Positions 32,075-54,868 of a stretch of DNA of 64,000 nt are shown in pieces. Both the position numbers and the translations under genes were made by a program. Under the pieces are notes generated by a model, which worked only from the letters and a program-made list of their open reading frames with translations, searched no databases and was not told the origin of the DNA. The DNA comes from Nakamurella panacisegetis (GTDB lineage: Bacteria; Actinomycetota; Actinomycetes; Mycobacteriales; Nakamurellaceae), in NCBI RefSeq assembly GCF_900104535.1, contig NZ_LT629710.1:1426001-1490000 (forward strand), given 5' to 3'. Positions within the stretch are counted from its first letter, which is position 1; each line of letters starts with the position of its first letter.

Positions 32075-32997
32075 TCGTCGTCCTGGCGCCGGGGCCGTTG
32101 GCCACCGTCCAGGATCTGGGGCGTCCGGGCCTGGCCCATCTCGGCATCAGCCCGTCCGGCGCCGCCGACCGTCCGTCCCACATACGTGCGAACACGTTGG
32201 TCGGCAACGACCTCGGCGCGGCCACCATCGAGATGACGCTCGGCCGCCTTCGGGTGCGCTTCGAGTCCACCACCACGATCGCGGTGACCGGCGCCCCCTG
32301 CGTCCTGAAGCTGGACGGCGTCGTCGTCCCCCACGGCACGGCGGTGGGAGTTCTGGCCGGGCAGGAACTCCGGGTCGGCGCGCCCTCGTCGGGACTGCGG
32401 ACCTACCTCGCCGTGGCCGGCGGCCTCGATGTCCCGCCCACGCTCGGCTCGCGGTCCACCGACACCCTCTCCGGCCTCGGTCCGGCCCCGCTGCGGTCCG
32501 GGCAGGTACTGCCCGTGGCCCCGTCGCGGACGGCCCTCGGGCCGCCTCGGCGGACGGAGAGCGGGGCGCACGGTGCCAGCGGGACGGAGGGTGCGAGCGG
32601 GGCGCACGGTGCGAGCGGGACGGACGGTGCGAGCGGGACGGACGGTGCGGGACCGGACGGGCCCCTCACGGTGACGCCGGGACCGCGGGCCGACTGGTTC
32701 ACCGATGCGGCGCGCGAAACCCTCTGCCGCACCGCCTGGATCGTCAGTACCGATACCAACCGCGTGGGCGCCCGGCTGAACGGTCCCGCCCTGGACCGTG
32801 CCGTCACGCGCGAGCTCCCCTCGGAGGCGATGGTGGCCGGCGCCCTGCAGGTACCCCCCGACGGCCGGCCGATCCTGTTCCTGGCCGATCATCCGGTGAC
32901 CGGGGGCTATCCAGTGATCGCCGTCGTCGCCGAGGCCGACCTGCCCCGGGCGGCTCAACTTCGCCCCGGAGCCGCTGTGCGGTTCCGGGCGCGGTGA
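32071..32997 (+). CDS. pxpC: 5-oxoprolinase subunit PxpC (KipA-like) with Gly-Ala-Ser insert
   Basis: 308 residues from GTG, coupled to pxpB by a GTGA overlap. Conserved: VVLAPGPLATVQDLGRPGLA, GISPSGAADRPSHIRANTLV, GLRTYLAVAGGLDVPPTLGS and FLADHPVTGGYPVIAVVAEA. The partner protein forms a carboxylase/kinase-like complex with PxpB. Residues about 165-195 are a repetitive insertion of GASGTD-like hexapeptides not expected in the family, placed in a surface loop between the two halves. The frame is kept. Next to it on the opposite strand is proline iminopeptidase, which can release N-terminal proline, giving a mild theme of proline and oxoproline salvage. Confidence 0.9.
   Translation: MIVVLAPGPLATVQDLGRPGLAHLGISPSGAADRPSHIRANTLVGNDLGAATIEMTLGRLRVRFESTTTIAVTGAPCVLKLDGVVVPHGTAVGVLAGQELRVGAPSSGLRTYLAVAGGLDVPPTLGSRSTDTLSGLGPAPLRSGQVLPVAPSRTALGPPRRTESGAHGASGTEGASGAHGASGTDGASGTDGAGPDGPLTVTPGPRADWFTDAARETLCRTAWIVSTDTNRVGARLNGPALDRAVTRELPSEAMVAGALQVPPDGRPILFLADHPVTGGYPVIAVVAEADLPRAAQLRPGAAVRFRAR
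32562..32655 (+). repeat. In-frame 18-bp minisatellite inside pxpC
   Basis: About five degenerate copies of an 18-bp unit coding for Gly-Ala-Ser-Gly-Thr-Asp (GGTGCGAGCGGGACGGAC in its cleanest form, twice in tandem near 32607-32642). Being a multiple of three, copy changes would lengthen or shorten the loop without breaking the protein. Confidence 0.8.
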
Positions 32998-33057: not shown

Positions 33058-33999
33058 TCACTCCTGGGCGAATCGCGTCAGCGCCGCCGCCATGATGTCG
33101 CGCGCCTCCTCGCTCCCGGTGTGGCCGCCTCCGAAGTAGTGCAGTTCGGCCTCCGGCCACGCCCGGGAGAGCAGCCACGGCACGTCCGCCGGGCTGCCCA
33201 GGTCAAGGCGCCCATGGATCAGCACGGCCGGGATCCCGGCCAGTCGGCCCGCGTTGCGGATCAGCTCGTCGGACTCCAGCCACGCGGCGTGGGAGAAGTA
33301 GTGCGCACACAGCCGGGCGAACGCAACTGTCGCATCGGGATCCTCGTACTTTCCCGACGGCGCCCAACCCTCCTCGAGCGACAACACAGCGTCCTCCCAG
33401 TCGCGCCAGTCCCGCGCGGCCTGACGACGGACAGCGGGGTCGTGATGGCGATTGAGCAACTGGTCGTAGGCCGCGATCAGGTCCGGTGCGTTGCCCCCTC
33501 GCTCGCTGAACCGGTGCCACTCGACCGGGAAGTACCGGCCCACCTCGTGGTACAGCCAGTGCACGTCCTGGGGTCGGGTCATGGTCACCGAGATCAGCAC
33601 CATCGCGGTGACGCGATCAGGGAAGCGCTGCGCGTAGGCCAACGCCAGCGTCACTCCCCAGGACCCGCCCCACACCACCCAGCGGTCAATGCCGAGGTGC
33701 TCCCGGAGCCGCTCGATGTCGGCGATCAGGTGGTGGGTGGTGTTCGTCGAGAGGTCGGTGTCGAGGTCGGCCACGCTCGGCGTGCTCCGCCCGCACCCGC
33801 GCTGGTCGAACCGGACCAGCCGGTACCGGGCCGGGTCGAACGCGCGCCCGCTGGACATTCCGCTCCCCGGGCCGCCGTGCAGCGCCACCACCGGTTTGCC
33901 ATCCGGATTGCCGCTGACCACCCAGTGCACCAGCTGCCCGTCACCAACGTCCAGCATGCCCTCGTCGTACGGAACGGGATGCGGAAAGAGTTGGGCCAC
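33058..33999 (-). CDS. pip: Proline iminopeptidase
   Basis: 313 residues from GTG at 33999, reading VAQLFPHPVPYDEGMLDVGD, the usual N-terminus of this alpha/beta hydrolase. It releases N-terminal proline from peptides in the cytoplasm. Motifs: oxyanion loop ALHGGPGSGMSSGRAFDPAR, FDQRGCGRSTP, nucleophile elbow GGSWGVTLALAYA with Ser, acid Asp in IHGRLDLGSP and the terminal His in FGGGHTGSEE. The start is fixed by family length and by TACGAT 6 nt upstream; a frame extending to 34464 runs through the repeat array and is not coding. It may have its own leaderless mRNA. Confidence 0.94.
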   Translation of the reverse strand: MAQLFPHPVPYDEGMLDVGDGQLVHWVVSGNPDGKPVVALHGGPGSGMSSGRAFDPARYRLVRFDQRGCGRSTPSVADLDTDLSTNTTHHLIADIERLREHLGIDRWVVWGGSWGVTLALAYAQRFPDRVTAMVLISVTMTRPQDVHWLYHEVGRYFPVEWHRFSERGGNAPDLIAAYDQLLNRHHDPAVRRQAARDWRDWEDAVLSLEEGWAPSGKYEDPDATVAFARLCAHYFSHAAWLESDELIRNAGRLAGIPAVLIHGRLDLGSPADVPWLLSRAWPEAELHYFGGGHTGSEEARDIMAAALTRFAQE

Positions 34000-34011: not shown

Positions 34012-34082
34012 GGTTGCCGGATTCCTGCAGGCGCCCTCCCATCGGGGCAGCGCGTCCCCGATCTGGGCCTCCGGCTCGCACC

Positions 34083-34252
34083 GCGTCCAGCTCTTTCGTC
34101 CACTGCCGCGCCCCGCGCGTCCAGCTCTTTCGTCCACTGCCGCGCCGCGTGCGTCCAGCTCTTTCGTCCACTGCCGCGCACCGCGCGTCCAGCTCTTTCG
34201 TCCACTGCCACACCCCGCGCGTCTAGCTCTTACGTCCACTGCCGCGCCCCGA
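34083..34252. repeat. Five tandem 34-bp repeats
   Basis: Five head-to-tail copies begin at 34083, 34117, 34151, 34185 and 34219, each 34 bp. The first 22 bases (GCGTCCAGCTCTTTCGTCCA followed by CT) are identical in copies 1-4, and copy 5 has two changes. The rest of each unit, mostly C and G, varies at a few positions. There are no spacers. 34 is not a multiple of three, so it does not encode a protein repeat. It lies in the 508-bp gap between the divergent iminopeptidase and polyketide genes, nearest the iminopeptidase. Confidence 0.95.
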
Positions 34253-34494
34253 GCAGCAGGTATCGGTCTCCGGTGGTTCTCCGGCTCTGGGCCGGGTCGC
34301 CGCCCGCAGCATCGGGAATGGGCCAACAACGTACGGATCTGTCGTTCGACTACGAACGACAATCCCGTACGTACCGACGGGTAGCGGCGCGCACGAAGTC
34401 GACCCGGTCCGGTCGCAGGCACTCCCCGGCCCCCGGCCCCGCCGGTTCGTCGCTCTTGCCGCATCTCAGAGCCGAACCGAGCGCCGCCGCGTCG
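34253..34494. other. Non-coding upstream region of the polyketide operon
   Basis: This part of the gap holds no convincing gene. It contains the long imperfect inverted repeat at 34329-34372 and, just after it, the promoter box at 34495. Base composition is slightly less GC-rich around the hairpin than in the flanking genes. Confidence 0.6.
34329..34372. repeat. 20-bp imperfect inverted repeat
   Basis: Left arm 34329-34348 and right arm 34353-34372 are complementary at 17 of 20 positions around a 4-nt centre (ACTA). The inner 9 bases (TGTCGTTCG / CGAACGACA) and outer 8 (ACGTACGG / CCGTACGT) pair perfectly. It ends 123 bp before the polyketide synthase box. It could be a dimeric regulator site or an RNA hairpin. 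Confidence 0.75.
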
Positions 34495-34500
34495 TACTGT
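34495..34500 (+). promoter_or_regulatory. Leaderless-type -10 box of the type III PKS operon
   Basis: TACTGT, 7 nt before the GTG at 34508. Confidence 0.55.
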
Positions 34501-34507
34501 GGGCGAG

Positions 34508-35572
34508 GTGACGACCCTGGTAGCGGTACACGGCGTGCTCCCGGAGCACCGATATCAGCAGGACCAGATCACCCAGGCATTCGCCGAGGTCTGCCTCGGG
34601 GACGAATCCGCCGCCAACGTCGCGCTGCTGCGGCGGCTGCACGCCAACTGCTGCGTGGACGCCCGGCACCTGTCGCTGCCCCTGGAGCGCTACCGGGAGC
34701 TGGCCGACTTCACCGAAGCCAACGACGAGTACGTGCGGGTCGCGACCGACCTGGCCGAGCAGGCGGTCGTCGGAGCCCTGCAGGAGGCCGGCCTGCGACC
34801 GGAGGACGTTGACATCGTCTTCTCGACCACGGTCACCGGCTTGGCCGTGCCGTCGATCGAGGCTCGGATCGCCGCGCAGGTCGGCTTCCGGCCGGATGTG
34901 AAGCGGGTGCCGATGTTCGGGCTCGGGTGCGTGGCCGGGGCGGCCGGCATCGCCCGGATGCACGACTACCTGCTCGGGCACCCGGACCAGGTGGCCGTGT
35001 TGCTGGCCGTCGAGTTGTGTTCGCTGACCGTGCAACGTGACGACCGGTCGATGGCGAACCTGGTGGCCAGCGGCCTGTTCGGGGACGGCGCCGCGGCCGT
35101 GGTCGCGGTCGGCGGAGCGCACGCACGGGCCGGAGACGGACCGACGGTGCTCGACACCCGCAGTCACCTCTACCCCGACACGCAACGGACCATGGGCTGG
35201 GACATCGGTGCCGCGGGGCTCACGATCGTGCTGGACGCGCAGGTCCCGGCCCTGGTCGAGCAGTACCTGGGGGGTGACGTCCGCTCCCTGCTGGCCGAGC
35301 ACGACCTGACCGTCGACGACATCGCCCACTGGGTATCGCACCCGGGCGGCCCGAAGGTGATCGAGGCGATCGAAAGGGAGCTGGCCCTGCGGCCGGACGC
35401 GCTGGAGATGACCTGGCGATCACTGGCCGACGTCGGGAATCTCTCGTCCGTGTCGGTGCTGCACGTGCTGCGGGACACGCTGGCCAAGCGCAGCCCGATG
35501 CCCGGCACACCCGGGGTGCTGATGGCCATGGGTCCGGGTTTCTGCGCCGAGCTGGTGCTGTTGCGGTGGTGA
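34508..35572 (+). CDS. Type III polyketide synthase (SrsA-like)
   Basis: 354 residues from GTG. Chalcone-synthase fold with the full catalytic triad: Cys141 in FGLGCVAGAAGIARMHDYL, His278 in WVSHPGGPKV, Asn311 in DVGNLSSVSVLHVL. The C-terminal GPGFCAELVLLRW is the usual cyclization-loop end. Bacterial members extend fatty acyl-CoA starters with malonyl-CoA units to alkylresorcinols or alkylpyrones. The next two genes overlap head-to-tail (methyltransferase, FAD monooxygenase), the order of Streptomyces griseus srsABC, so a methylated, possibly quinone-forming phenolic lipid is the inferred product. The start is supported by TACTGT 7 nt upstream. Starter unit and ring pattern cannot be predicted from sequence by eye. 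Confidence 0.93.
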   Translation: MTTLVAVHGVLPEHRYQQDQITQAFAEVCLGDESAANVALLRRLHANCCVDARHLSLPLERYRELADFTEANDEYVRVATDLAEQAVVGALQEAGLRPEDVDIVFSTTVTGLAVPSIEARIAAQVGFRPDVKRVPMFGLGCVAGAAGIARMHDYLLGHPDQVAVLLAVELCSLTVQRDDRSMANLVASGLFGDGAAAVVAVGGAHARAGDGPTVLDTRSHLYPDTQRTMGWDIGAAGLTIVLDAQVPALVEQYLGGDVRSLLAEHDLTVDDIAHWVSHPGGPKVIEAIERELALRPDALEMTWRSLADVGNLSSVSVLHVLRDTLAKRSPMPGTPGVLMAMGPGFCAELVLLRW

Positions 35573-36084
35573 CCTTCTACGTCGTGCTGCTCGCCCTGTT
35601 CGCCGTGGAGCGCCTGGCCGAGTTGATCATCTCCAAGCGCAACATCGCCTGGAGCATGGGGCGCGGCGGCCGGGAGTCCGGCGCCGGCCACTACCCCGCG
35701 ATGGTCGCCCTGCACACCGCCCTGCTGGTCGGCGCGCTGGTCGAGGTGGTGGTCGCCCACCGCCCGTTCCTACCGTGGCTGGGCTGGCCGATGCTGGCGA
35801 TCGTCGTTGCGGCGCAGTCACTCCGGTGGTGGTGCATCAGGACCCTCGGCCGGCGCTGGAACACGAGGATCGTGGTGCTGCCCGACGTGCCGTTGGTGAC
35901 CTCGGGGCCCTATCGCTGGATCCGGCATCCGAACTACGTGGCGGTCGTCGTCGAGGGCATCGCGTTGCCGTTGGTGCACACCGCCTGGATCACCGCCATC
36001 ACGTTCACCGCGCTCAACGCCTGGCTGCTGACCGTCCGGATCCGCGCCGAGAACCGGGCCCTGGCCGCAGTGCCCGCGGCGTGA
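35569..36084 (+). CDS. ICMT-type membrane methyltransferase (SrsB/BpsB-like)
   Basis: 171 residues with about five membrane helices. The isoprenylcysteine carboxyl methyltransferase signature is at the C-terminus: VTSGPYRWIRHPNYVAVVVE, in which RHPNY binds S-adenosylmethionine, followed by RIRAENRAL. In type III PKS operons such proteins O-methylate phenolic or pyrone lipids in the membrane. The GTG at 35569 overlaps the PKS stop by 4 nt; the adjacent GTG at 35566 is an alternative. Its own stop overlaps the next GTG. Coupling at both ends makes a single operon very likely. Confidence 0.9.
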   Translation: MTFYVVLLALFAVERLAELIISKRNIAWSMGRGGRESGAGHYPAMVALHTALLVGALVEVVVAHRPFLPWLGWPMLAIVVAAQSLRWWCIRTLGRRWNTRIVVLPDVPLVTSGPYRWIRHPNYVAVVVEGIALPLVHTAWITAITFTALNAWLLTVRIRAENRALAAVPAA

Positions 36085-37094
36085 TCGACCTGCTGGTGGC
36101 CGGGGCCGGACCGGCCGGTCTGGCCACCGCCCTGTACGCCGCCCGCGCCGGGCTGAGCGTCACCGTCGTCGATCCGCGCACCGGCCCGATCGACAAGGCC
36201 TGCGGGGAGGGCCTGATGCCGGGAGCCGTCCGAGCCCTGAACGACCTAGGCGTCGTCCTGTCGGGCCAGGCCTTCGGCGGCATCCGCTACCTCGACGCCC
36301 GGCGCTCGGCCGCGGCGTTGTTCCCGCACGGCGCCGGCCTGGGCGTGCGCCGCACCGCCCTGCACGAGGCGATGACCACCAGGGCCGTCGCCGCCGGGGT
36401 GCGGTTCGCGGTCGGTACGGTCACCGACGTGTCCCAGGGACACGACACCGTGACGGCGGCCGGTCACCAGGCCCGATACCTGGTCGCTGCCGACGGCCTG
36501 CACTCGCCGGTGCGGCATCAGCTCGGCCTGAACCGCCCGGCCCGCGGGCCGGCCCGATGGGGCCAACGGCAACATTTCTCGGTGGCTTCGAGCGCGAACC
36601 TGGTCGAGGTGCATTGGGCCGCACGGTCGGAGTGCTACGTGACCCCGATCGGGCCCGGGGAGATCGGCGTGGCCGTCCTCAGTTCGCGCAGGGCGCCGTT
36701 CGCCGTGCAGCTCGAGGCGTTTCCCCGGGTCTTGGAGGCTTTGCGCGGCGCCACCCCGACCACCGTCGTCCGCGGGGCGGGACCCCTGCGGCAGAACGCA
36801 TCTCGTCGCGCTCTGAACCGGGTGCTGCTGGTCGGCGACGCCGCCGGCTACGTCGACGCCCTGACCGGCGAGGGCATCGCGGTGTCCCTGGCCTGCGCCC
36901 GGTCGGCGGTGGCGGCCATCGTCGCTGACCGCCCGACGGACTACGAACGGGCCTGGAGACGGGACACCCGCCGATACCGCTGGATCACCGAGACCCTGTT
37001 GACCACGCGTCGTTTCGCCGGCCGATCGATCGTTCCGGCCGCATCGCTGCTGCCCGACGTGTTCCGCCTGGCGGTCGGACAACTGGCCCGCTGA
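36081..37094 (+). CDS. FAD-dependent monooxygenase (SrsC-like / geranylgeranyl-reductase type)
   Basis: 337 residues from GTG, overlapping the methyltransferase stop by 4 nt. FAD site: DLLVAGAGPAGLATALYAAR (residues 3-22), the acid of the first fold in VVDPRTGPIDKACGEGLMP, and GDAAGYVDALTGEGIAVSLA (near 255), where most hydroxylases have GDAAH. It belongs to the geranylgeranyl-reductase/para-hydroxybenzoate-hydroxylase superfamily. In srsABC the third gene hydroxylates the methylated alkylresorcinol, leading to a quinone; the same step is inferred here. A reductase acting on a lipid chain is the alternative. It ends at a bidirectional hairpin. Confidence 0.88.
   Translation: MIDLLVAGAGPAGLATALYAARAGLSVTVVDPRTGPIDKACGEGLMPGAVRALNDLGVVLSGQAFGGIRYLDARRSAAALFPHGAGLGVRRTALHEAMTTRAVAAGVRFAVGTVTDVSQGHDTVTAAGHQARYLVAADGLHSPVRHQLGLNRPARGPARWGQRQHFSVASSANLVEVHWAARSECYVTPIGPGEIGVAVLSSRRAPFAVQLEAFPRVLEALRGATPTTVVRGAGPLRQNASRRALNRVLLVGDAAGYVDALTGEGIAVSLACARSAVAAIVADRPTDYERAWRRDTRRYRWITETLLTTRRFAGRSIVPAASLLPDVFRLAVGQLAR

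Positions 37095-54832: not shown

Positions 54833-54868
<36 letters not shown>

Follow-up and report, generated by a model that had tools for sequence, protein, structure and literature searches.

Does a regular array of five 34-bp tandem repeats lying between two divergent genes of Nakamurella panacisegetis serve as a binding platform for a regulatory protein, or is it a minisatellite of little consequence? The question arises in a 64,000-nucleotide stretch of the chromosome (contig NZ_LT629710.1, positions 1,426,001 to 1,490,000), hereafter the window, whose own numbering is used below unless chromosomal coordinates are indicated. The five tandem copies of constant period proposed in the initial annotation are borne out by TRF, which describes a head-to-tail array at 34082-34251 with a period of 34, 5.0 copies, 91% matches and 0% indels, and gives it the top score in the window (291). 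The copies, none of which is assigned a strand, are the following:

34082-34115, no strand: copy 1, CGCGTCCAGCTCTTTCGTCCACTGCCGCGCCCCG, equal to the consensus
34116-34149, no strand: copy 2, one difference (column 32)
34150-34183, no strand: copy 3, two differences (columns 1 and 31)
34184-34217, no strand: copy 4, two differences (columns 27 and 29)
34218-34251, no strand: copy 5, two differences (columns 7 and 15, both in the core)

Copies 1 to 4 do share an identical core, as had been proposed, its length being 25 contiguous bases (columns 2-26, GCGTCCAGCTCTTTCGTCCACTGCC) rather than 22, and copy 5 carries two substitutions within it. In total, seven columns of the unit vary and every variant is confined to a single copy, a star-like pattern in keeping with the local expansion, once, of one unit whose copies then mutated independently. 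When a 22-base core is searched with up to three mismatches, five matches are found in the window against none expected from 100 shuffles, so that the array consists, as minisatellites do, of head-to-tail copies of a unit between 10 and 100 bp, well above chance. Palindromes were not reported inside the unit, and a search for promoters of the sigma-70 type, the type covered, gave no match in it, on which ground a repeat bearing such a promoter was rejected. Besides, the RNA fold of the array does not differ from that of shuffled sequences on either strand (z 0.26 and -1.37), and the Rfam scan returned no family, its sole row being a below-threshold microRNA match at a separate palindrome; a structured RNA element was thus rejected.

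The genes on both sides agree with those initially annotated, namely a prolyl aminopeptidase and an operon encoding a type III polyketide synthase (PKS), an ICMT-family enzyme and a FAD-enzyme:

33058-33999, minus strand: prolyl aminopeptidase (proline iminopeptidase), probable GTG start near 33999
34499-35572, plus strand: type III PKS of the chalcone/stilbene synthase family (PF00195, PF02797), first gene of the rightward operon
35566-36084, plus strand: ICMT-family methyltransferase (PF04140)
36080-37094, plus strand: FAD-dependent oxidoreductase, GG-reductase/monooxygenase-like (PF01494 from ORF residue 105)

The aminopeptidase scores 273.7 bits with TIGR01249 (cut-off 259.75) and also matches PF00561, while the FAD-enzyme has a mechanical ORF starting at 35775, of which the homologous part begins near 36080. 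Gene sets like this PKS-ICMT-FAD one produce phenolic lipids in other actinomycetes, and phenolic lipids are its putative product. In the same neighbourhood, a gene with a CT_A_B-family carboxyltransferase domain contains another repeat, an in-frame 18-bp unit present five times at 32559-32649, which encodes a repeated GASGTDGASGTD-like peptide. Elsewhere in the window, positions 54834-54867 consist of 34 consecutive C, which is unusual even for GC-rich DNA.

Since the minus-strand frame of the aminopeptidase stays open upstream as far as 34464, and hence across the array, the repeats could in principle encode part of an N-terminal extension of this enzyme. This reading is very improbable: the 34-bp period shifts the frame at every copy, so that no peptide is repeated between copies, and in the 468-residue frame the match to the family model begins no earlier than residue 165. 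In addition, tblastn against the relatives backs homology only from about 33999, where the queries used began, and open frames are common in GC-rich DNA, many overlapping ones being listed here.

The distance from the array to the aminopeptidase start is 83-252 bp, and to the PKS start about 250-420 bp, with the array upstream of both genes. Such a position would suit an operator array specific to this lineage, in which a DNA-binding protein would recognise the 25-bp core and tune the aminopeptidase or PKS promoter with a strength set by copy number. The 25 contiguous bases identical in copies 1 to 4 and the leaning of the changes towards the tail speak for such an array. Nevertheless, it is an unlikely explanation, since no single or related site exists elsewhere in the genome and none that convinces in the relatives, a scan of neighbouring proteins revealed no regulator family, the unit has no reported palindrome, and the clustering of changes outside the core loses significance once corrected for scanning. 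The helical geometry is also unfavourable. The initial annotation had counted about three turns per unit, which would place identical sites on the same face of the DNA and allow cooperative binding; yet 34/10.5 gives 3.24 turns, that is, a rotation of about 86 degrees per copy, so the sites do not share a face. Same-face cooperative binding was therefore rejected, 34 bp not being a whole number of turns, and neither the missing regulator family and palindrome nor the absence of the array and the gene pair from every relative lends support to cooperative binding. A more elaborate version, still less probable, holds that the array is a recently evolved, species-specific multi-copy operator whose copy number would tune the phenolic-lipid operon or the aminopeptidase, so that expression would vary heritably in a phase-like manner. 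Were expression indeed altered by copy number, the locus would offer a simple example of a tunable promoter in an actinobacterial genus that has received little study.

What is the distribution of the unit in this genome and in its relatives? In the 5.01-Mb chromosome, the 22-base core occurs five times, always within the array; the unit is thus specific to one locus, as in minisatellites, and a dispersed repeat family was rejected on this ground. The core is absent from all 16 other Nakamurella genomes, where a single match with three mismatches remains at the level of chance, a reversed control pattern giving four. Likewise, no exact 20-mer of the unit was found in genome_contigs (85,000 genomes) and no exact 18-mer in viral_contigs, two collections from which records very near the own genome are possibly excluded. 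No plasmid or phage matches to the unit were found either, and a mobile, phage or plasmid origin was rejected given the lack of matches in the viral, plasmid and phage collections. Among 394 genomes of the class and 397 of the order, the array is nowhere found, the matches there being just isolated single sites with two mismatches, and when the unit was searched at relaxed E-value, the matches outside the array were all short and weak, the best having an E of about 0.006. The titles of the literature on tandem repeats in Nakamurella pointed to nothing evidently relevant.

The gene context gives the same picture. The PKS gene or operon is found in 12 of the 16 other Nakamurella genomes, and TRF, applied to these 12 loci extended by about 1.5 kb of flanking sequence, detects no equivalent array, nor is there one at the aminopeptidase homologs of the relatives, which are sited elsewhere and never beside the PKS operon. 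The array and the divergent order of the two genes therefore both appear, from these sequence comparisons, to be private to the lineage. Sites upstream of orthologous genes and helically phased spacing, as expected of a conserved operator, are thus lacking at the 12 PKS loci and the aminopeptidase homologs on the one hand, and in the array with its 3.24 turns on the other. The initial annotation had asked for the unit to be searched in this genome and in related ones, and had named absence from close relatives beforehand as an argument against a conserved regulatory role; the core is found solely here and the array in no relative, which leaves such a role unsupported.

The alternative offered at the outset, a neutral minisatellite, is consistent with everything tested. 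The array is quite probably an ordinary bacterial minisatellite, private to its lineage and likely neutral. Judging by how such arrays generally arise, a 34-bp intergenic segment would have been tandemly duplicated through replication slippage or unequal recombination, would then have expanded to five copies, and would subsequently have acquired a few point mutations; its role would probably be nothing specific beyond lengthening the gap between the two divergent genes. While slippage and neutrality are both inferred here, the pattern of substitutions deserves consideration, since selection on the core would make the changes lean towards the tail. Five of the nine tail columns vary against two of the 25 core columns (Fisher p 0.015, counted by sites), a split that was picked after inspection of the copies and for which a scan-corrected permutation gives p 0.17. 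This lean is suggestive evidence against neutrality that is lost after the correction; several of the tail changes fall in CpG steps, which offers a mutational explanation for it. The constant period without indels is also compatible with constraint.

The ordinary character of the array can further be judged from the tandem-repeat background of the chromosome, sampled as 80 stretches of 20 kb plus the window (some overlapping, about 1.64 Mb of distinct sequence, around a third of the chromosome). This sample contains 43 listed arrays with a TRF score of at least 100, one of them listed twice, with periods of for instance 19, 16, 17, 20, 23, 35 and 62; many of these, whose periods are not multiples of three, probably do not code for protein. 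Among the roughly 42 arrays, only a 62-bp one places above the 34-bp array. The latter is thus large for this genome, not exceptional in kind, the many other arrays of the same chromosome making it one of an ordinary sort. In the one relative sampled (G007, the closest by PKS identity), eight arrays with a score of at least 100 were counted in 0.4 Mb. The commonest period among well-matched arrays of the sample is 19 bp; further arrays of this period, with units unlike GCGCATAY, lie at L188:9357-9446, L192:3543-3667, L193:504-576 and L201:10047-10154.

The window's chromosome also carries about 17 copies of a dispersed 62-bp inverted-repeat element, GCGCAKAY...RTMTGCGC. The pattern GCGCAKAN{42,54}TMTGCGC has 18 chromosomal matches, all of exactly 62 bp even though 13 gap lengths were allowed, and the one at 2631063 looks like chance. 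From one or both ends of the element, further tandem copies of the end module, GCGCATAYnGAACTGCCCG, often extend outward at a 19-bp period. Examples in chromosomal coordinates (G000:C1; loci L276, L287, L301 and L302) are:

312937-312998: 62-bp element
401569-401630: 62-bp element
1713817-1713878: 62-bp element
2353162-2353223: 62-bp element
2802351-2802412: 62-bp element

Several such elements occur in G013 and one related 19-bp tandem in G016. The remaining relatives have at most one pattern match apiece; nearly all these matches differ from 62 bp in length and none contains the internal sequence of the family, so that they are probably due to chance. The element was found neither in the rest of the genus nor in about 100 further genomes of the order. 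With no Rfam match at its loci, it looks REP- or MITE-like. As the 34-bp array comes from the same genome and likewise forms tandem copies outside annotated-looking genes, it might be thought a member of this family, a proposal that is scarcely credible: the sequences are not similar (an equally good alignment is obtained with 46% of shuffles), the period is different, no inverted partner exists, and the GCGCATAY motif is found nowhere in the window. Kinship with the 19-bp family was accordingly refuted on sequence.

The intergenic gap holds another element, separate from the array:

34329-34372, no strand: palindrome with 20-bp arms, about 44-50 bp, between the array and the PKS gene

Its DNA fold is far better than that of shuffled sequences (z -6.5). 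The core TGTCGTTCGNNNNCGAACGACA occurs at four chromosomal places with at most one mismatch, in the form TGTCGTTCG-N4-CGAACGACA, the three near-identical copies outside the window lying at 1306351, 1719503 and 1979442 of the same chromosome (L270, L267 and L269). A covariance model, for which these four copies provide slight covariation support, finds its own four copies and no convincing other in 16 relatives; one weak match, in G010, resembles a terminator hairpin that directly follows a tRNA-like 3' end. No Rfam family matches the loci of the palindrome, for which a large operator and a small mobile hairpin are both conceivable readings. Together with the 62-bp element, this four-copy palindrome looks more interesting than the 34-bp array.

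Regarded as a minisatellite, the 34-bp array could serve as a strain-typing marker for the species and has otherwise little consequence, apart from the caution that it provides against taking regular repeats of promoter regions for operators. Set beside known systems, it shares with operator and iteron arrays, whose direct repeats are bound cooperatively, the presence of direct repeats in a divergent intergenic region, but differs from them in lacking conservation, a second genomic site, a cognate regulator and whole-turn spacing. CRISPR arrays resemble it in their regular repeats of short constant period, whereas here it is the entire 34-bp unit that recurs, altered by no more than seven singleton changes and interrupted by no unique spacers, so that a CRISPR array, which requires constant repeats split by unique spacers, was rejected. 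With bacterial intergenic minisatellites and VNTR loci, the latter defined by variation in copy number between strains, no difference was observed in a comparison that covered one genome per species, and the likeness extends to every trait compared: short head-to-tail copies of constant period, an intergenic position, restriction to one lineage, slight divergence between copies, and a few to several units.
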